Shown: one piece after another, positions 16,941 to 26,202 of the stretch
Numbering within the stretch: the stretch's first letter is position 1
Layout of the letters: each line of letters starts with the position of its first letter
Source of the DNA: Caproicibacterium amylolyticum
GTDB taxonomy: Bacteria > Bacillota > Clostridia > Oscillospirales > Acutalibacteraceae
Direction: 5' to 3'
Length of the DNA stretch: 64,000 nucleotides
NCBI RefSeq assembly: GCF_014467055.1
Contig: NZ_CP060696.1
Coordinates: forward strand, 1,860,001 to 1,924,000
The notes under the pieces: generated by a model
Told to the model about the DNA's origin: nothing
The model's database searches: none
Seen by the model: the letters and a program-made list of their open reading frames with translations, nothing else
Made by a program: the position numbers and the translations under genes

Positions 16941-18371
16941 TTACAGGCTGGATTCTGCCTTCCCGGAAATTGCGCGCGCAACAACCACACCGGTTGCGGA
17001 GGCCTGCATCAGGCCGCGGGTAATACCCGCACCGTCGCCGATTGCGTACAGCCCCGGAATCTTCGTAGAGAAGTCATCGTTGACTTCGACTTTGGAGGAA
17101 TAGAACTTCACTTCCACACCGTACAGCAGTGTATTTTTGCTGTAAAGTCCCGGTGCCAGCGCATCAAACGCTTTCAGCGATTCCACAATCGAGGTCAAGT
17201 GGCGATGCGGCAGCACAAAGGAAAGGTCACCCGGCACCGCAGTTTTTAGAGTCGGCACAGTCGTACTCTTGGACAAACGGGAAGCATCACTGCGGCGTCC
17301 CAACAGCAGGTCGCCCAGACGCTGCACCATAATGCCGCCGCCTGTCAGCATATTTCCAAGCTTTGCAATGTAGCGGCCGTACTCGATTGGCTGGTCAAAC
17401 GGCTGTGTGAATTTAGTAGAAACCAGCAGTGCGAAATTCGTATTGTCGCTGTGGCGTTCTTCTTCTGCGTAAGAATGTCCGTTTACAACAGCAAGACCGC
17501 CGTTCGGGCCGTCATAATGTTCTTCGCTGACAATGCCGCCGGGGTTCATGCAGAAAGTACGCACCTTATTTTCAAAAGTGTCAGAGTAATAGACCAGCTT
17601 TGCTTCGTACAGACTCTTGGTTAAGTGGTCCATGACACCATTCGGCACTTCCACACGGACACCAATGTCCACTTCGTTGTTGGTAAGCTCCAAACCGGTT
17701 TGCTTCGCAATGTGGGAAAGCCATGCGGCACCGCCGCGGCCCGGCGCGGCAACAATGTTTTCCGCTTCCACACGGCTGGTGGAACCATCCGCAAGTGTCA
17801 GTACGGCTCCGGCAGCACGGCCGTTTTTCACAAGGATACTTTCCGCAGTTGTGTGCGGCAAAAATGTGAACTGCGGCTTCTGTGCCAAATAATCGTACAT
17901 GGCCTTGAGAACCTGATAGCTGTACTCGGTACCCATATGGCGCACAGGACAGCGAATCAGCTGAATGTTCTGCCGGCGGGCATCATAGGCGATTTTATCC
18001 GCTGTGCGGTCACCTGTGCCAAACACTTTCTCCGGTGCGCCAAAGTGCAGATATTCCTTATCACAGTAATGAATCAGTTCCTGTGCTTTTTCCCTAGACA
18101 TATAATCCACCAGATTACCGCCGACATCCTCGCACAAAGACAGTTTGCCATCGGAAAATGCACCGGCACCCGCCCAGCCGTTCATAATGCTGCAGGTCTT
18201 GCAGTGCATGCAACGGCCCTGTGTACGTGCAGGGCAACGCCGGTCCGCAATGGCACTGCCGGTGTCCACAACCAGAACCGACTTTTCCGGCGAGACCCGG
18301 TCCAGTTCCAGTGCGGTAAAAATACCGGCAGGACCGGCACCGATCACCAGTACATCGTAATTATTTTTCAT
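16941..18371 (-). CDS. FAD-dependent oxidoreductase (COG2509-like)
   Basis: The 476-residue flavoprotein starts with the FAD-binding Rossmann motif DVLVIGAGPAGIFTALEL and ends with a second FAD signature GLYAIGDGAGITRGLMQA. A cysteine-rich block CPARTQGRCMHCKTCSIMNGWAGAGAFSDGKL (given here in its key parts: CPAR, CMHCKTC, GAGAFSDGKL) is characteristic of the uncharacterised FAD-dependent dehydrogenase family COG2509. The Cys cluster could hold a metal or iron-sulfur centre, but this is inference. Substrate unknown. It has its own ribosome site and stands alone. Confidence 0.82.
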   Translation of the reverse strand: MKNNYDVLVIGAGPAGIFTALELDRVSPEKSVLVVDTGSAIADRRCPARTQGRCMHCKTCSIMNGWAGAGAFSDGKLSLCEDVGGNLVDYMSREKAQELIHYCDKEYLHFGAPEKVFGTGDRTADKIAYDARRQNIQLIRCPVRHMGTEYSYQVLKAMYDYLAQKPQFTFLPHTTAESILVKNGRAAGAVLTLADGSTSRVEAENIVAAPGRGGAAWLSHIAKQTGLELTNNEVDIGVRVEVPNGVMDHLTKSLYEAKLVYYSDTFENKVRTFCMNPGGIVSEEHYDGPNGGLAVVNGHSYAEEERHSDNTNFALLVSTKFTQPFDQPIEYGRYIAKLGNMLTGGGIMVQRLGDLLLGRRSDASRLSKSTTVPTLKTAVPGDLSFVLPHRHLTSIVESLKAFDALAPGLYSKNTLLYGVEVKFYSSKVEVNDDFSTKIPGLYAIGDGAGITRGLMQASATGVVVARAISGKAESSL

Positions 18372-18535: not shown

Positions 18536-19189
18536 TTATTCCAATCGATAAGCGCAGTCCGTTTTGGGGCAGGAAGCACACTTCCCGCCGCAGGCATGCC
18601 CAGCGGTTTTTGTTGGTTCAGGGGTCAAACCAATAAATGCTGTCACGCTCTTTGTCGGCGTCATCAGCATACTCTGCGTACATGTCAGCCCAATCCGCTT
18701 CTCCGCATTCAGCACACGCAGAAGCTGCTGCTGGCAGGAAAGAGAAAGGTCACCGTAGCCCGGGCTGAAACGTGGGCGAAGATACAGCCCCTGTTTTGCG
18801 AAATGAACCGCCAGCTGCTCACAGCATTCATCGCAGAAAGCTTCCGTGGCAGCGGCGGCCGCAGCCTGCAGTACAACGGCGGGTGTCACCGCAGTCGCCG
18901 CCGCGCGGCGCATAAGGCTGTCCGGCGCAGTACCCAAAGTTGCGGCAAACAGACAAACCTGTGTACAGCCGTTCAGGTGTTTTGCAAGATCCTTGCTCTG
19001 CAGCATGATTTCCGCTGTGCAGATTCTGTTTCCTTCTATTTCAACCGGATAAGACGCCCAAATCCAACGCGGGTCACATTCTTTTTTCAGAAGGGACACC
19101 GCCGCCTGTACCTCCTGCCGGATTCGCCCGCCGGGTTCTTCCCGTCCGCATCCAAGGTAGCGGAATACCTCCCGCTCATCAATCTGCAT
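18536..19189 (-). CDS. Methionine synthase reactivation-domain protein
   Basis: The 217-residue protein corresponds to the C-terminal S-adenosylmethionine-binding activation domain of cobalamin-dependent methionine synthase, here a separate gene. Markers are REVFRYLGCG at the start, VCLFAATLG, LQAAAAAATEAFCDECCEQL, and the signature RPRFSPGYGDLSLSCQQQLLRVLNAEKRIGLT, followed by SMLMTPTKSVTAFIGL. The C-terminus has CGGKCASCPKTDC, seen in clostridial versions. It would re-methylate oxidised cob(II)alamin in MetH. The start at 19189 overlaps metF by 11 bases and lacks a good ribosome site, which suggests coupling. Confidence 0.88.
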   Translation of the reverse strand: MQIDEREVFRYLGCGREEPGGRIRQEVQAAVSLLKKECDPRWIWASYPVEIEGNRICTAEIMLQSKDLAKHLNGCTQVCLFAATLGTAPDSLMRRAAATAVTPAVVLQAAAAAATEAFCDECCEQLAVHFAKQGLYLRPRFSPGYGDLSLSCQQQLLRVLNAEKRIGLTCTQSMLMTPTKSVTAFIGLTPEPTKTAGHACGGKCASCPKTDCAYRLE

Positions 19190-20054
19190 AGTCAGCAATA
19201 ATATCAGAAAGATTGCTGAAAATCTGCGCAGCAATCTCCGGCTTGTTCATGGTGTAAATATGAATATGCTCCACACCATTGGAAATCAAGTCAATAATCT
19301 GCTCAGTAGCGTAAGCAATGCCTGCCTGCTTCATTGCCGCCGGATTGTCGCCGAAGCGATCTACCAAACTTACAAACCGCTGCGGCAGATAAGTACCGGA
19401 AAGCTCCACACTGCGTTTAATCTGCTTTGCGTTTGTTACCGGCATGATGCCCGCTAAAATCGGCACCCGGATACCAACGGATAGTGCACGGTACAGGAAA
19501 TTATAAAATAAATCATTATCAAAGAACATCTGGCTGGTAAAAAAGTCACAGCCGGCATCCGCCTTTTCTTTCAGATGCTGTAAATCTTCCGCCTTGCTGG
19601 CACTTTCCACATGTCCCTCCGGATAGCACGCGCCGCCAATGCAGAAATCGCCCATTGCTTTCAGGTCGGCAATCAGTTCACAGGCATGGCGGTACTGTCC
19701 CTCGCCGGGAAATGTGCCGTCCTGCGGAATGTCTCCCCGCAGTGCAAGAATGTTTTCCACTCCGTTTTCCGCAAAGCGGCGCGCAACCGCGCGCACTTCT
19801 TCCTTGTTCGCAGAAACACAGGTCAGATGGGAAAGCGCCGGCACACCGGTTTTCTCCACTTCCGCTGCAAGCTCAACGGAGTTGTCGCAGTTGGTACCGC
19901 CCACACCGTACGTAACACTGACAAATGCAGGGTTCAGTGCCGCAATTTCCTGCACAACTTCACGGGCATGCGTAAGGCCGATGCCCTTTTTCGGCGGGAA
20001 TATTTCGCAGCTGACGGTTATATGTCCACTTTTCAGCAATTCATTGATTTTCAT
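19179..20054 (-). CDS. metF: 5,10-Methylenetetrahydrofolate reductase
   Basis: The 291-residue TIM-barrel flavoenzyme makes 5-methyl-THF for methionine synthase. Visible MTHFR features are VSCEIFPPKKG near the start (with the catalytic-region Glu), FVSVTYGVGGT, HLTCVSANKEE, NILALRGDIPQDG, IGGACYPEGHVES, and CDFFTSQMFFDNDLFYNF, and IPILAGIMPVTN-type VPILAGIMPVTN. The ATG at 20054 follows AGGAGAG by 11 bases; the longer in-frame ORF has no support. It is the first gene of a two-gene unit with the MetH reactivation protein. Confidence 0.94.
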   Translation of the reverse strand: MKINELLKSGHITVSCEIFPPKKGIGLTHAREVVQEIAALNPAFVSVTYGVGGTNCDNSVELAAEVEKTGVPALSHLTCVSANKEEVRAVARRFAENGVENILALRGDIPQDGTFPGEGQYRHACELIADLKAMGDFCIGGACYPEGHVESASKAEDLQHLKEKADAGCDFFTSQMFFDNDLFYNFLYRALSVGIRVPILAGIMPVTNAKQIKRSVELSGTYLPQRFVSLVDRFGDNPAAMKQAGIAYATEQIIDLISNGVEHIHIYTMNKPEIAAQIFSNLSDIIADYAD

Positions 20055-20119
20055 CGTTTTATTCTCTCCTGTTCCGCAGTTTTGGCGCAGAGTTAGAACC
20101 TGCTTCTGCTGATGAAAAC

Positions 20120-20149
20120 AGTATACCACAAACCCGCCGCCTGTGCCAA
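20120..20149 (-). promoter_or_regulatory. Promoter of metF
   Basis: On the minus strand TTGGCA (20144-20149), 18 bases, TATACT (20120-20125). The leader to metF is about 60 bases, too short for a SAM or cobalamin riboswitch. Confidence 0.65.
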
Positions 20150-20193
20150 TTCTTTTTGAATGCACCATAATAAAGTATGAGCAAAAGGGATGC

Positions 20194-20222
20194 GTGACAA
20201 ACCGTGCGTTTTCGACTATAAT
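20194..20222 (+). promoter_or_regulatory. Promoter of the PglX-like gene
   Basis: GTGACA (20194-20199), 17 bases, TATAAT (20217-20222), facing away from the metF promoter. Transcription would start about 25 bases before the gene. Confidence 0.7.
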
Positions 20223-20255
20223 AAATAAACATGTTTAGAAAAGGGAGGAAGCGGC

Positions 20256-23200
20256 ATGGAAAAAGCAGCCGTCTGTGCGCTGGCACAGAAAGCACGTGCC
20301 AGTCTGGAAAAATCAGCACATCTCTGCCTGCAAGCCCTGCGCGGTCCGCGCCTGCCGGAGGGAGCCGGGCTGCAGCAGGATTTGCTGCTGCGCAAAGCAT
20401 CCAAATTGGGGGAGGATGCCCTTTGCAGAAATGCGGCCTACCGCTTTTTCATGCAGCTTGCCGGAATCCGCTATATGGAAGCAAACGGATATCTGCCGTA
20501 TCGCGTGCTAACTCCCGCGGCTGACGGCAGCATCCCGGAAATTATGGAGCACTGGCTGAAAAGCCATGAAGACACACTGGACCGTGATGCGCTGTTTACG
20601 GAGCTGTTTCGCAGCGAATGTGCCCGCCTGCATGATTGCATGCCGGATTTTTTTCCCAGCCCGGACTGTGATGACCTTCTGCTCTCCCTCAGTTGCACGC
20701 ATGGTACAACAAAACTTCTTGCAGAAAGCCTGCCAGAAAACGACTGGCAAAATAATGTTGAAATCATTGGTTGGCTGTATCAATATTATCACTTGGAAGA
20801 AAAAGACAATGCCATTGATGTTTACCGTGGTGCAGTCAAAATGCGGGATGTGCCGGCTGCCACCCAGTTCTTTACTACTGACTGGGTAGTGCAGTACATG
20901 GTACAGAACACCCTTGGGCGTGTCTGGCTGGAAAGCCACCCCGACAGCCGTCTGCGCACGCAGATGCCTTACTATCTGGACACCCCGCAGAAAACCACCC
21001 GCCGCCCCATGCAACCGCAGGAGCTTCGCCTGCTGGACCCTTGCATGGGCAGTGGACACATTCTGGTGTATGCATTTGAACTGCTGCTGAAAATCTATGC
21101 GGAATGCGGTATTTCTGCGGCGGAAGCGGCACCGCAGATTTTAAAAAACAATCTTTGGGGTTTGGACATCGATGAGCACAGCCGCCAGCTTGCCGCCTTT
21201 GCCCTACTGATGAAAGCACGAGCCTGCGACCCGGCTGTTTTTGACAAACGCCCCGTACTGCACCTGTGTGCTGTTCACGGAAGTAAGGGCATTTCCAGAG
21301 ATGTTCTGCACTTTGCGGCAAACGAAGATGAAGCGCTGGATGATGACCTGCACCGCATGGTAACCGCTTACCGCGGCGCCCAACAGTTCGGCTCTCTGCT
21401 GCACGCACCGCACGTGGACCTAGCACTGCTGAAAGCACGCTTTGAAACCATTCACCGGGAACTTTGGCCAGGTGATTTATTTAAGATGGAAGCCCGCAGA
21501 CTGGCGCTGGAAACGCTGCTGCCGCTGCTGCTGCAGACGGAGGTCCTTGCTAACCAGTACGATGCTGTGGTAACAAATCCGCCCTATTTGAATCACATGG
21601 CAAAACCGCTGCGCAAATTTGTGGACACCAACTGGCCGAAATACAACAATGACCTTTTCGCGGTATTCATGGTGCGTAATTTTGACTTCTGCAAACCAAA
21701 CGGCTACTGCGGCTTTATGACGCCGTTTGTTTGGATGTTCATTAAAAGCTATGTTCATCTGCGCCGGTTTCTTGCGGACGAAAAATCTGTTTCATCCCTT
21801 GTACAGATGGAATACTCCGCATTTGAGGAAGCAACCGTACCAGTATGTACGTTCGTACTGCAAAATAAAAAAGAAGAAGATCCCGGCCGTTACCTGAAGC
21901 TGACTGCCTTTACCGGCGGTATGGAGGAGATGGGGCGCCGTGTGGCACAGGCTGCCGCGCACCCCGGCAGTACATGGGATTACGAAGCACGCCTTTCTGA
22001 TTTTCTGCAGATTCCCGGCAATCCCTTTGCCTACTGGGCAGGCGGCAGCATTGCACGTGTGTTCCGTCAGGGAACGCCGCTTGGCGACTCCGCTGAAATC
22101 TGCAACGGCCTGTTCACCTGCAGCAATCAGCGTTTTCTGCGCCTGTGGTGGGAAGTTGATCAGGACAACATTGATTTTTCCTGCAAAGACGCACAGGACT
22201 GCCGCGAAAGCCTTTGCCGATGGTTTCCCTACAACAAAGGCGGTGCCTACCGAAAATGGTACGGCAATCAGGACTGGGTGGTGGATTTTGCGGACTTCGG
22301 TACTGAAATCCGCAGCTACCGCGTGAAAAGCGGGCAAAGTGCCGCCATGCCCGGACGGCAGCATTACTTTGAGGAAAGTTTAAGCTGGGGTTTTGTCAGT
22401 TCCAGTAAATTCGGCGTACGTGCCTACCCCGCGGGATTTATTTTCGACATTGCGGGTTCCTCTCTGTTTCCAAAACCGCAGGATAAACTTTACCGGCTCG
22501 GTTTTCTGGGCAGTTCCACCGCGTATCAGTTTTTGCAGGTGCTGAATCCAACGCTGAACTGCCAGGTTGGGGACATTGCCCGCCTGCCGGTACTGGAAGC
22601 CGGTGACCGCTCCGGCATAGAAACGCTTGTTGCCGAAAATATTACCCTTTGCCGTGCGGATTGGGATGAACAGGAAACCAGTTGGAATTTCACCGGCCAC
22701 CCGCTTGTTCTCGCCAAAGGTACAACGCTCAAAGAAGCGCAGGCAGACCGGCAGAGGACTTCTGCCGCCCACGCAAAACGTTTAAAAGAAAATGAGGAAG
22801 CCATTAACCGGCATTTTGCCACGCTGTACGGCACCGGCGCGCCGGTCACTGTGGAAAGCCATGACCTTTCCATCCATCCGGCTGACCCTGCTCAGGATGC
22901 GCAGACGCTTCTTTCTTACTTTGTCGGTGTGTTTTTCGGGCGGTTCGCCTGCGATTTCTGGCAGCCGCCAACTGGTACGCCTGTGCTACTTCTGGAGGAA
23001 GCGCCGCAGCTGTTCACAGAATTTTTGGAAGCTCGCTTCGGTACCGGTGCTGCGGACGAACTTGCTCTGCTGCTCGGCAAAGGCACCACCGCTTATGTTT
23101 TAAAGCGCTGGTTTACCCGCACGTTTTTCCGAAGCCACTGCCAAATGTACCGCAAGCGTCCCCTTTACTGGCAGACCTGCTGCGGTAAACCGGCGCTGCT

Positions 23201-23363
23201 GTACTACCATGGCGACCTCACGGCATCGCTGTGTTTTCTTGCCGCACTTGCGCCGGAGGAAAAGAAGCTGAAAGCATTGGCAGCACATCCACCGGTGTTT
23301 GACCGAAACGACGGCATCCCTGTGAACTTTGCTAAGCTGCAGCCGATTCTGCGGAAAATTTAA
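20256..23363 (+). CDS. pglX: Orphan PglX-type adenine-specific DNA methyltransferase
   Basis: A 1035-residue protein of the PglX/Eco57I-like gamma-class N6-adenine methyltransferases. Motif I (SAM binding) is DPCMGSGHILVYAF from about residue 259, with GLDIDEHSRQLAAFALLMKAR after it; catalytic motif IV NPPYLN is near 440, followed by FMVRNFDFCKPNGYCGFMTPFVWMF. The N-terminal FFTTDWVVQYMVQNTLGRVW and C-terminal target-recognition region match BREX PglX, though it is shorter than the usual roughly 1200 residues. GGGAGG sits 7 bases before the ATG. No brxA, brxB, brxC, pglZ, brxL or restriction gene flanks it: the neighbours are metF and metH. The recognition sequence is unknown. Confidence 0.85.
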   Translation: MEKAAVCALAQKARASLEKSAHLCLQALRGPRLPEGAGLQQDLLLRKASKLGEDALCRNAAYRFFMQLAGIRYMEANGYLPYRVLTPAADGSIPEIMEHWLKSHEDTLDRDALFTELFRSECARLHDCMPDFFPSPDCDDLLLSLSCTHGTTKLLAESLPENDWQNNVEIIGWLYQYYHLEEKDNAIDVYRGAVKMRDVPAATQFFTTDWVVQYMVQNTLGRVWLESHPDSRLRTQMPYYLDTPQKTTRRPMQPQELRLLDPCMGSGHILVYAFELLLKIYAECGISAAEAAPQILKNNLWGLDIDEHSRQLAAFALLMKARACDPAVFDKRPVLHLCAVHGSKGISRDVLHFAANEDEALDDDLHRMVTAYRGAQQFGSLLHAPHVDLALLKARFETIHRELWPGDLFKMEARRLALETLLPLLLQTEVLANQYDAVVTNPPYLNHMAKPLRKFVDTNWPKYNNDLFAVFMVRNFDFCKPNGYCGFMTPFVWMFIKSYVHLRRFLADEKSVSSLVQMEYSAFEEATVPVCTFVLQNKKEEDPGRYLKLTAFTGGMEEMGRRVAQAAAHPGSTWDYEARLSDFLQIPGNPFAYWAGGSIARVFRQGTPLGDSAEICNGLFTCSNQRFLRLWWEVDQDNIDFSCKDAQDCRESLCRWFPYNKGGAYRKWYGNQDWVVDFADFGTEIRSYRVKSGQSAAMPGRQHYFEESLSWGFVSSSKFGVRAYPAGFIFDIAGSSLFPKPQDKLYRLGFLGSSTAYQFLQVLNPTLNCQVGDIARLPVLEAGDRSGIETLVAENITLCRADWDEQETSWNFTGHPLVLAKGTTLKEAQADRQRTSAAHAKRLKENEEAINRHFATLYGTGAPVTVESHDLSIHPADPAQDAQTLLSYFVGVFFGRFACDFWQPPTGTPVLLLEEAPQLFTEFLEARFGTGAADELALLLGKGTTAYVLKRWFTRTFFRSHCQMYRKRPLYWQTCCGKPALLYYHGDLTASLCFLAALAPEEKKLKALAAHPPVFDRNDGIPVNFAKLQPILRKI

Positions 23364-23658: not shown

Positions 23659-26202
23659 ATGACATCCATACGGGAACAGCTTGGAAAACGAATGATTTTC
23701 TGTGACGGCGGCATGGGTACCATGCTGCAGAAAGCGGGTCTTGCCGCAGGCGAAACGCCGGAACTGTGGAACTTTACGCATCCGGAGGTACTCACTCGGA
23801 TTCACACAGAATACGCGAAAGCCGGCGCCGATATTGTGACCGCAAATACATTCGGTGCCAATTCCATTAAACTGGAGTGTAAAGAATATTCCGTAAAAGA
23901 AACCATTACGCGGGCTGTTCACTTGGTGAAAGATGCCGCTGCACCGCTTGGCAAATGGACAGCGCTGGACATCGGCCCAACCGGCCGCCTGCTGGAACCG
24001 ATGGGTGACCTTTCTTTTGAAGACGCCTACCACGCCTTTCAGGAAGCCGCCGAAGCCGGTGAAGCGGCAGGCGCGGATGTGATTCTGATTGAAACCATGA
24101 GTGACACACTGGAAATGAAAGCGGCGCTGCTCGCCTGCAAAGAAAACACCTCCCTGCCGGTCTTTGCTACCATGACCTTTGACGCAAAAGGCAAGCTGCT
24201 GACCGGCGGCGACATTCCCGCCGCGGCGGTTCTGCTGCAAAGCCTGCACGCAGACGCAGTCGGCTTTAACTGCGGGCTCGGCCCGCAGCAGATGATTGAC
24301 TTCCTGCCAAAGCTGCGGGAGTACACGGACTTGCCGATTCTGATTCAGCCGAATGCGGGACTGCCGCAGGTGGAAAACGGCGAAACCGTTTATCTTGTCG
24401 GGCCGGAGGAATTTGCGGCGGATTCTGAAAAGCTCTGGGAGGGCGGCGCCTGTGTTCTGGGCGGCTGCTGCGGCACTACCCCAGCACATATCAAAGCACT
24501 GGTTGAAAAACTTTCCGGCAAGACGCCAAAGTCACTTCCCCACAGCACCAAAACGGTTGTGTCCTCTTACAGCCATGCCGTCACACTGGGCGGACGCACG
24601 CAGCTGATTGGCGAACGCATCAACCCAACCGGCAAAAAACGACTTCAGCAGGCACTGCGTGAAGATGACATCGGCTACCTACTGCGGGAGGGCATTGCAC
24701 AGCAGGATGCTGGTGCGGACATTCTGGATGTGAATGTCGGCCTGCCGGAAATTGACGAGCCAAAGCTGTTAACCGAAGCGGTTCAGGCGCTGCAGGGTGT
24801 TACCGACCTGCCGCTGCAGATTGACACCAGTGATCCCGTGGCAATGGAGCAGGCACTGCGCATTTACAACGGCAAACCGCTTTTAAATTCCGTAAACGGC
24901 AAGCAGGAAATTATGGATTCCGTATTCCCGCTGGTAAAAAAATACGGCTGCGCAGTAATTGCCCTCACACTGGATGAAACCGGGATACCGGAAACTGCAG
25001 AGGGACGCTTTGCCATTGCGAAAAAAATTGTACGGGAAGCAGCAAAATACGGAATTCCGAAACGCGACATCATCATTGACGCACTGGCCATGACCATTTC
25101 TGCCAGTCAGGAAGCCGCACAGGTTACTTTGCAGACACTCCGCATGGTGCGTGAAAAGCTGGGCCTGCACACCAGCCTTGGCGTTTCCAATATTTCATTT
25201 GGGCTGCCGCACCGCGAGCGTGTTACCTCTGCGTTCTTTACCATGGCAATGCAGGCAGGACTTTCCGCCGCCATCATCAACCCCAAAAGTGAAGCAATTA
25301 TGGACGCATGGCGCAGTTTTAACGCGTTGATGTGCTATGACAAAAACTGCATTCAGTACATTGAATATTACAAGGATTTGCCGAAAACAGGCGCACAGAA
25401 GCCCGCCGCACTCCCCACCGGAAACGCGCTGGCGGTGGCTGCAAACGCGTTGGTCGCCGCAGGCAACGCCCTTGCCGCCGCTGCCGGACAAAAAGTGGAA
25501 CTTACAGGTAAAGTATCTGTTCCTTTTGACATTGCGGTCCCTGCCGCTGCAACGGAAAAGGGACCTGCAGGCAAAAGCAAAAAATCCGCGCTTTATCACG
25601 CGGTCGCTAAAGGTTTACAGGACGATGCCCGCACTGCCGCCGCAGATGCTTTAAAAACGGCTGAACCACTGGACGTCATTCAAAACGAACTGGTGCCCGC
25701 ACTGGATGAAGTCGGCACCGGCTACGAAAGCGGCAAACTTTTTCTGCCACAGCTTTTGATGAGTGCGGACGCCGCTACTGCCGCATTTGAAGTAATTCGC
25801 AGCACGCTGCAGGCAGGCGGTCAGAAGGCTGAAAAGAAGGGAACCATTGTGCTTGCCACCGTGAAAGGTGACATCCATGATATTGGTAAAAATATTGTAA
25901 AAGTTTTATTGGAAAATTACGACTACAACGTCATTGACTTAGGCCGTGACGTTGACCCGCAGACAGTCGTGGATGCTGTAAAGGAAAACGACGCACCTCT
26001 GTGCGGCCTTTCCGCACTGATGACAACTACGGTAGTCAGTATGGAAAAGACGATTGCACTGCTGCATGAACAGTGCCCAACCTGCAAAGTAATGGTCGGT
26101 GGTGCAGTATTGACGCAGGAGTACGCTGACCAAATTCACGCCGACTGCTACAGCAAAGACGCCATGGGTTCGGTACGCTACGCCGCCACGGTTTTCGGAT
26201 AA
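23659..26202 (+). CDS. metH: Cobalamin-dependent methionine synthase (no activation domain)
   Basis: The 847-residue enzyme transfers a methyl group from 5-methyl-THF to homocysteine. Domain 1 (about 1-290) is the homocysteine methyltransferase barrel with Zn ligands C205, C270 and C271 (FNCGLG, GGCCGTT). Domain 2 (about 310-575) binds folate, with GERINPTGKK and ILDVNVGLPEID. Domain 3 binds B12, with the cap region and GDIHDIGKN near 737 whose His is the cobalt ligand. The reactivation domain is absent and is encoded separately 4.5 kb away beside metF. An Ala-rich linker (about 585-640) precedes the cap. Confidence 0.94.
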   Translation: MTSIREQLGKRMIFCDGGMGTMLQKAGLAAGETPELWNFTHPEVLTRIHTEYAKAGADIVTANTFGANSIKLECKEYSVKETITRAVHLVKDAAAPLGKWTALDIGPTGRLLEPMGDLSFEDAYHAFQEAAEAGEAAGADVILIETMSDTLEMKAALLACKENTSLPVFATMTFDAKGKLLTGGDIPAAAVLLQSLHADAVGFNCGLGPQQMIDFLPKLREYTDLPILIQPNAGLPQVENGETVYLVGPEEFAADSEKLWEGGACVLGGCCGTTPAHIKALVEKLSGKTPKSLPHSTKTVVSSYSHAVTLGGRTQLIGERINPTGKKRLQQALREDDIGYLLREGIAQQDAGADILDVNVGLPEIDEPKLLTEAVQALQGVTDLPLQIDTSDPVAMEQALRIYNGKPLLNSVNGKQEIMDSVFPLVKKYGCAVIALTLDETGIPETAEGRFAIAKKIVREAAKYGIPKRDIIIDALAMTISASQEAAQVTLQTLRMVREKLGLHTSLGVSNISFGLPHRERVTSAFFTMAMQAGLSAAIINPKSEAIMDAWRSFNALMCYDKNCIQYIEYYKDLPKTGAQKPAALPTGNALAVAANALVAAGNALAAAAGQKVELTGKVSVPFDIAVPAAATEKGPAGKSKKSALYHAVAKGLQDDARTAAADALKTAEPLDVIQNELVPALDEVGTGYESGKLFLPQLLMSADAATAAFEVIRSTLQAGGQKAEKKGTIVLATVKGDIHDIGKNIVKVLLENYDYNVIDLGRDVDPQTVVDAVKENDAPLCGLSALMTTTVVSMEKTIALLHEQCPTCKVMVGGAVLTQEYADQIHADCYSKDAMGSVRYAATVFG

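Follow-up and report, generated by a model that had tools for sequence, protein, structure and literature searches.

The pglX gene of the window, that is, of the whole 64,000-nt stretch of Caproicibacterium amylolyticum DNA analysed here, belongs, as judged from its sequence and that of its relatives, to a lineage of solitary methyltransferases that is conserved and bears a clear evolutionary signature, and is not a BREX oddity of one genome. We think it likely that the gene is a domesticated BREX-1 PglX, which would act as an autonomous, vertically inherited orphan methyltransferase placing m6A marks of fixed specificity in a housekeeping or regulatory role. Solitary methyltransferases such as Dam and CcrM are inherited vertically, have a single fixed motif and no nuclease partner, and are small enzymes acting on palindromic sites; we know of no such methyltransferase that is derived from BREX. 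A description of a solitary PglX was not found among the papers listed from the open-licence literature. If the proposed origin is true, a defence-derived route would be added to the origins of bacterial epigenetic regulators.

The pglX gene and the absence of BREX partners

Features of the pglX locus, with positions counted from the first base of the window
Feature	Position	Strand	Remark
FAD-dependent oxidoreductase gene, syntenic anchor	16941..18371	-	Pfam FAD-depend_C
metF (MTHFR), divergent neighbour	19179..20168	-	true start may lie further inside the ORF
Sigma-70-like promoter GTGACA-17-TATAAT	20194..20222	+	match 11/12
Ribosome-binding site GGGAGG	20243..20248	+	read from upstream sequence
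Solitary pglX, BREX-1-type adenine-N6 DNA methyltransferase	20256..23363	+	1035 aa; profile and alignment matches
N-terminal helical domain (NTD), aa 1-167	20256..20756	+	alignment to E. coli HS BrxX
Methyltransferase domain, aa 168-584	20757..22007	+	includes BrxX-type insert, aa 340-433
SAM motif I DPCMGSGH, aa 261-268	21036..21059	+	DPCMGxGH in 19/19 solitary orthologs
Catalytic motif IV NPPY, aa 441-444	21576..21587	+	19/19 solitary orthologs
Target-recognition domain (TRD), aa 585-782	22008..22601	+	alignment
C-terminal domain (CTD), aa 783-1035	22602..23360	+	shortened; BREX metal-site DxD gone
metH (B12-dependent methionine synthase)	23659..26202	+	domain match

An earlier note on this DNA had described a PglX-like protein with intact SAM and NPPY motifs, transcribed from its own promoter, and the profile scores, the motif positions and the sigma-70-like site upstream agree with this description. 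The gene starts with ATG, 7 nt downstream of GGGAGG. Sigma-70-like sites of the quality of GTGACA-17-TATAAT were found seven times in the 3.9 kb scanned, against 2.7 expected, and the same hexamers with the same spacing, beginning 59-82 nt before the start, are present in 7 of the 11 orthologs of the genus. No promoter with these hexamers and spacing was found upstream of the other four, which have a same-strand gene directly upstream (in G173 a transporter gene according to Pfam), while the four inspected genes of the sister genus have a different promoter-like site in common.

With the BREX-1 PglX model of NCBIfam, NF033452 (cut-off 500), the protein reached 841 bits, with the PADLOC PglX model it reached 881 bits, and phmmer comparison with the solved PglX/BrxX proteins of E. 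coli and Salmonella gave E values of 1e-125 to 1e-136. The alignment with Salmonella PglX starts at residue 1 and spans 976 of the 1035 residues; on such comparisons the entire chain is accounted for by the PglX fold. DrmMI of DISARM belongs to the same methyltransferase superfamily, although the match to it is weaker than that to PglX (459 bits). Besides the score above the cut-off, the SAM motif and NPPY are present, whereas the BrxX-specific metal site of the CTD is not. Thus, the gene is by its sequence a member of the PglX family, yet what characterizes a BREX system, namely PglZ and BrxC in the same genome and a TRD that varies among relatives, was not found.

The genome is a single contig of 2,996,201 bp (99.99% complete), and PglZ (PF08665), BrxC (NF033441) and a second PglX are absent from the whole of it. 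BrxA, BrxB, BrxC, PglZ and BrxL were also not detected in the 64-kb window by tblastn with E. coli HS and G250 queries. The earlier note had stated that BREX partners are missing and had named BREX core genes elsewhere in the genome, with a degraded or absent pglX of their own, as evidence against a solitary gene; the statement held genome-wide for PglZ and BrxC and within the window for BrxA, BrxB and BrxL. As positive controls, the same searches detected PglZ in three members of the genus (G250, G252, and G173) and BrxC in these and in G253 and G254, so that PglZ or BrxC occurs in 5 of the 11 genomes and both are absent from 6, the window genome included. G250, G252, and G173 carry separate BREX-1 islands with BrxC, PglZ, BrxL and a PglX of their own, which is 32-36% identical to the window protein; in G173 the BrxC match is confined to the final two thirds of the model. 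In the fragmented MAGs G253 and G254, BrxC was detected and PglZ was not. Two features of orphan methyltransferases were found, the lack of a recognised cognate partner (no nuclease domain, PglZ or BrxC, and within the window no BrxA, BrxB or BrxL) and a vertical, lineage-wide conservation that includes the TRD.

Distribution, neighbourhood and inheritance

Full-length orthologs without internal stops were present in all 11 genomes of the genus examined, and the ten others share 57-81% identity with the window protein. Of the 11 genomes of the sister genus g26, seven contained a full-length ortholog and G261 an incomplete one, at 45-48% identity, and G262 had a fragment at a contig edge. The remaining two genomes, one of them 97% complete, lacked the gene, which is thus dispensable there. 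The FAD-dependent oxidoreductase gene lies at most 2.5 kb from pglX at each of the nine g26 loci and at all but one of the 11 loci of this genus. The exception is G250, where this gene is missing from the locus and pglX still lies between more distant syntenic genes. Across 136 pairs from 17 genomes the identity of PglX correlated with that of the FAD-oxidoreductase (Pearson 0.92, Spearman 0.81; 0.97 for the 45 pairs within the genus), and none of 2000 label permutations reached the observed value. The divergence of pglX follows that of its neighbour, and the gene is thus inherited vertically. The neighbourhood comparison proposed in the earlier note revealed a pglX locus that is common to two genera and anchored by the FAD-oxidoreductase gene. 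Apart from this gene, itself absent at the G250 locus, no conserved partner gene common to both genera was found; the neighbours differ between the genera, with a HAD gene downstream in the three inspected g26 loci and met genes or a transporter gene in this genus.

It had also been noticed that metF and metH flank the gene, and both were confirmed at the locus. The exact order metF-pglX-metH was observed in only 4 of 11 members of the genus, while in the rest both met genes were near but not flanking (3), neither was present (3), or the contig ended (1). Neither gene occurred in the nine g26 stretches fetched, two of which are short contigs. The connection with SAM supply that the earlier note had found intriguing hence looks incidental. 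No Rfam riboswitch was found in the 18 kb scanned around the locus, apart from one sub-threshold chance match, and with the met genes missing from three loci of the genus and from the g26 stretches, a methionine or SAM link was rejected.

In a sample of the family, 25 of 250 genomes contained any PglX match, and in a sample of the order 7 of 394 matched at E<=1e-60, two of them members of the genus and five with the match in a locus containing BREX genes. BREX genes were found around the other PglX matches at 13 fetched loci. PglX loci without BREX genes were those of the solitary lineage, of the genus g45, and of one contig (G227:C30, locus L065). The 20 kb fetched from this contig contain no BREX genes, but its genome carries a BREX locus on a different contig, and its PglX was kept in the BREX set. 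As far as sampled, the solitary lineage appears to be local to two genera. In a tree drawn with midpoint rooting, the BREX and solitary proteins separated, and the PglX alleles from the three BREX islands of the genus fell into the BREX group; the single origin of the two solitary genera rests on synteny and not on this tree. In 13 hand-picked pairs, several of them with dS >1, dN/dS was 0.02-0.10 for the TRD, about as low for the methyltransferase domain, and 0.08-0.31 for the CTD, and by this measure the gene is under purifying selection.

Conservation of the TRD and divergence of the flanking domains

Domains were delimited by alignment with E. coli BrxX, for which the available part of the published description gives NTD 1-210, MTD 211-650, TRD 651-837 and CTD 838-1205 (PMC11842806). 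The comparison set 18-19 solitary proteins against 55 others, of which 54 adjoin BREX genes: E. coli HS, 17 plasmid, 24 viral-contig, 3 in-genus and 10 family or order proteins. BrxC, PglZ or BrxL adjoins all of them except one of the ten family or order proteins (for L100 by annotation only). The plasmid proteins came from 17 of 309 records, out of 40 listed, and 24 of 33 viral loci were used, as L136, L140 and L150-L156 were near duplicates, truncated, partial, or outside the range of the script. G261, which contains runs of N, was included in residue counts but not in identity and tree counts, and G262 was left out of all alignments.

Among the BREX proteins, TRD identity averaged about 36-39% regardless of how close the catalytic domains were, whereas in the solitary set it followed the catalytic identity. 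For pairs with 75-85% catalytic identity, the TRD identity was 82% among solitary proteins (21 pairs) and 39% among BREX proteins (36 pairs). A TRD/catalytic ratio of at least 0.95, a threshold chosen after the solitary minimum of 0.958 was known, was found in 153 of 153 solitary pairs and in 11 of 836 BREX pairs, the latter being those of 1485 with a catalytic identity of at least 45%. In control pairs of low catalytic identity both identities are at their floor, so that the ratio can come to 1, and the limit removes most such pairs; without it, ratios at or above the solitary minimum occurred in 26 of 276 pairs of viral proteins, 3 of 153 pairs of plasmid or E. coli HS proteins, and 3 of 78 pairs of in-order BREX proteins. 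A first control set (21 proteins, 210 pairs) gave a mean ratio of 0.64, compared with 1.04, 0.99, and 1.07 in the solitary groups. Invariant columns told the same story by domain when 18 solitary and 20 BREX proteins were compared: 86 versus 12 of 198 in the TRD, 29 versus 58 of 253 in the CTD, 21 versus 31 of 167 in the NTD, and about equal numbers (58 and 61) in the 172 columns of the first part of the catalytic domain. Apart from the flanking domains, the BrxX-type insert also evolves fast. Accordingly, the conservation of the solitary proteins is, at the level of sequence, the mirror image of that of BREX PglX, with the TRD held and the flanks drifting in the former and the TRD switching and the flanks held in the latter, although some of this contrast comes from setting independent BREX systems against a single vertical lineage. 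The conservation of the TRD and the catalytic domain together with the drift of the CTD suggests that selection holds DNA reading and marking, and acts more weakly on the parts supposed to touch partners.

The drift of the CTD includes its metal site, examined at the equivalents of E. coli D997, D999, D1012 and Y1113. Among the 48 BREX proteins having this region, D999 was present in 47, D997 in 46 and D1012 in 45, compared with 0, 3 and 2 of 19 solitary proteins, respectively; the position of Y1113 falls in a gap in all 11 proteins of this genus, whereas seven of the eight from the sister genus have Y or F there. The CTD has about 250 aa versus 368 in E. coli, with intermediate values (299-303 aa) in the sister genus, and the NTD has 167 aa versus 210 in E. 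coli and 197-224 in the six BREX PglX proteins compared, all longer than that of the window protein. Shortening of the CTD alone is not diagnostic of the solitary lineage in these alignments: in the BREX PglX of G252 this domain is shorter still (202 aa), and for 6 of 13 in-order BREX entries the ORF does not include the metal region, while some of these have a CTD-like ORF close by. Compared with BREX-1 PglX/BrxX of E. coli HS and Salmonella D23580, the solitary proteins therefore differ in the missing PglZ and BrxC, in a TRD that is conserved and not variable, in shorter and fast-evolving NTD and CTD, and in the loss of the CTD metal site.

At nine positions that coincide with or adjoin residues of the E. 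coli enzyme which contact bases, intercalate or belong to a loop, the window protein has A526, T527, N617, F620, P699, V714, I732, L767 and N768. This signature was identical in 17 of 19 solitary proteins of the two genera (G257 and G258 have one change each) and complete in none of the 55 others. Details of the TRD alignment are uncertain, but this does not touch the invariance within the solitary set. A PglX from another family, that of G615, was the nearest BREX relative found; it matches at eight of the nine positions, and its TRD is 52% identical to that of the window protein and 63% to that of a sister-genus ortholog. The two kinds of enzyme may thus recognise the same motif, and the similarity suggests that the solitary gene descends from a G615-like system, or the reverse. 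N768 aligns with N823 of E. coli BrxX, which according to the accessible part of the source reads the base before the target adenine, an A (PMC11842806); in Salmonella-type enzymes, Asn at residue 838 likewise accompanies A at this position, as the available sections state (PMC11341690). On this equivalence we predict an A directly 5′ of the methylated A in the recognition site. In BREX proteins, too, Asn is the most frequent residue at this position (31/55), thus N768 narrows the motif only a little.

Mode of action and alternative explanations

According to the portions of the structural studies at hand, neither E. coli BrxX (PMC11842806) nor Salmonella PglX (PMC11341690) methylates alone, the activity of BREX PglX requires BrxB, BrxC and PglZ (PMC11842806), and flanking elements were suggested to keep BREX PglX inactive, the coelicolor PglX without these flanks being active (PMC11842806, PMC11341690). 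In the solitary lineage the catalytic residues were kept mostly without BrxC and PglZ and the flanking elements were partly lost, from which we infer that the enzyme acts alone. An ancestral BREX-1 PglX would have left the defence complex long ago, and the loss or shortening of flanking elements would have relieved the inhibition proposed for BrxX. The enzyme would bind SAM, recognise a single asymmetric site through its frozen TRD, flip out the target adenine and methylate it at N6, presumably with a truly fixed specificity, and the marking of the chromosome would probably tune the expression of some genes. The proposal of a solitary epigenetic regulator made in the earlier note is thus supported in its first part by the genus-wide vertical conservation, the purifying selection and the frozen TRD, while the regulatory role is suggested by analogy with CamA, the orphan adenine methyltransferase of Clostridioides difficile. 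CamA promotes sporulation in that organism, as stated in the available text of the source (PMC13395437); it differs from the solitary PglX in chains of <600 residues without the PglX NTD and CTD, and the identity is 16%.

Some observations weigh against domestication: the E. coli and Salmonella enzymes are inactive alone and the window protein retains much of the NTD/CTD architecture, BREX is common in the genus (5/11), two g26 genomes lack the gene, a short CTD also occurs in a BREX PglX (G252), the G615 protein has 8/9 of the signature, and the DNA-lining basic residues K515, K526 and K533 of E. coli BrxX are not basic in the solitary proteins.

That the enzyme methylates only with an unrecognised partner encoded elsewhere, in a split or replaced BREX-like complex, seems rather improbable to us. 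The dependence of BREX PglX on BrxB, BrxC and PglZ is consistent with such a partner, and split forms do exist, as the genus g45 encodes a CTD-less PglX and a CTD-like protein on different contigs. Nevertheless, the complete window genome contains no PglZ or BrxC, no separate CTD protein was found in G000 (by a search of limited sensitivity, which missed the CTD of the window protein itself), the neighbours differ between the genera, and the flanking domains are, besides the insert, the parts that evolve fastest. With both PglZ and BrxC absent from 6 of the 11 genomes, the split system considered in the earlier note is unsupported for this gene. A sequence-specific DNA-binding protein that has lost methylation and regulates by binding alone is very unlikely: the in vitro binding of E. 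coli BrxX to its site without methylation, reported in the accessible part of PMC11842806, provides a precedent, but NPPY and DPCMGxGH were retained in every solitary ortholog and the dN/dS of the methyltransferase domain is about that of the TRD. Similarly poor prospects attach to a BREX remnant, or an antidote guarding the host against BREX systems of mobile elements, also considered in the earlier note and now disfavoured. Although BREX islands occur in the genus (G250, G252, and G173) and the G615 protein shares most contact residues, the gene is full-length in all 11 genomes, its locus is common to two genera, and its contact residues do not match the genus's own three BREX PglX alleles, which the tree places among the BREX proteins. 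A type IIG restriction-modification enzyme can practically be dismissed, as the PADLOC IIG model matches (738 bits) less well than the PglX model, Pfam finds no nuclease domain (nor does Salmonella PglX have one according to the available part of PMC11341690), and the alignments with DrdV, MmeI and BpuSI begin only at residues 151, 161 and 175, whereas that with Salmonella PglX begins at residue 1; the earlier note had regarded homologs with a nuclease domain as evidence against its reading.

If domestication is accepted, a lineage that keeps catalysis and target reading mostly without PglZ and BrxC is a natural test of the flank-inhibition idea, and it supplies a list of lost elements with which the inhibition of BREX PglX can be tested. 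Escape from BREX may have been repeated, as suggested by the genus g45, a possible second solitary type known from two genomes. Both encode a PglX of 806-810 aa that terminates after the TRD and a separate PglX-CTD-like protein on another contig, and PglZ and BrxC are absent from both; in G044 the gene lies among the housekeeping genes aspS, fakA and recG. We hold as evenly balanced the broader idea that BREX methyltransferases can be domesticated into autonomous, fixed-specificity epigenetic regulators of the core genome, that this occurred in the two genera of the window lineage and in g45, where the CTD would have moved to a separate gene, and that the lost metal site and flanks mark the elements silencing a lone BREX PglX. 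In the single g45 pair, the identity of the TRD (82.7%) exceeded that of the catalytic domain (69.2%).

Surroundings of the solitary pglX gene

In three sister-genus loci, the solitary pglX is directly followed on the same strand, within a gap of about 20 bases, by another gene, which Pfam assigned to the HAD-family hydrolases in L056 and L058. An AT-rich stretch containing TTAACT-17-TATGAT is conserved upstream of pglX in four genomes of the sister genus (G025, G152, G259, and G260), and it is possibly a regulatory site. In the window, an ORF matching the activation domain of B12-dependent methionine synthase adjoins metF, separate from metH.

PglX and C-terminal-domain-like parts as separate genes

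A solitary PglX lacking the C-terminal domain (CTD) was present in both genomes of genus g45, and in G044 it is surrounded by housekeeping genes. In both genomes, a PglX-CTD-like protein of approximately 300 aa is encoded by a separate gene on a different contig from PglX, and neither PglZ nor BrxC was found in either of them. G615, a genome of another family, has a BREX PglX whose DNA-contact signature almost matches that of the solitary lineage (eight of nine residues identical); a CTD-like part forms its own ORF, farther along the locus.

Coordinates of the features (genome in brackets)
Feature	Locus	Position	Strand
Methionine synthase activation-domain ORF	window	18536-19234	-
Gene 3′ of pglX, sister genus	L056	11771-12424	
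Gene 3′ of pglX, sister genus	L057	11712-12374	
Gene 3′ of pglX, sister genus	L058	7672-8313	
PglX/PglX-CTD-like locus, g45 (G044)	L062	8478-10910	
PglX/PglX-CTD-like locus, g45 (G163)	L103	1198-3618	
PglX/PglX-CTD-like locus, g45	L117	9540-10451	
BREX PglX (G615)	L104	4953-7523	
CTD-like ORF (G615)	L104	10537-11625	

An additional BREX-like locus and partial PglX ORFs

G173, a member of the window's genus, contains a BREX-1 island and a solitary pglX, and a second PglZ with a PglX-CTD-like open frame of 325 aa, located at about 1.895-1.898 Mb of contig C1, is a second BREX-like locus. Multiple partial PglX ORFs lie close together in or near the BREX loci of G100 and G227 (L063, L064, and L065); these clusters might fit phase-variable or shuffling specificity systems.
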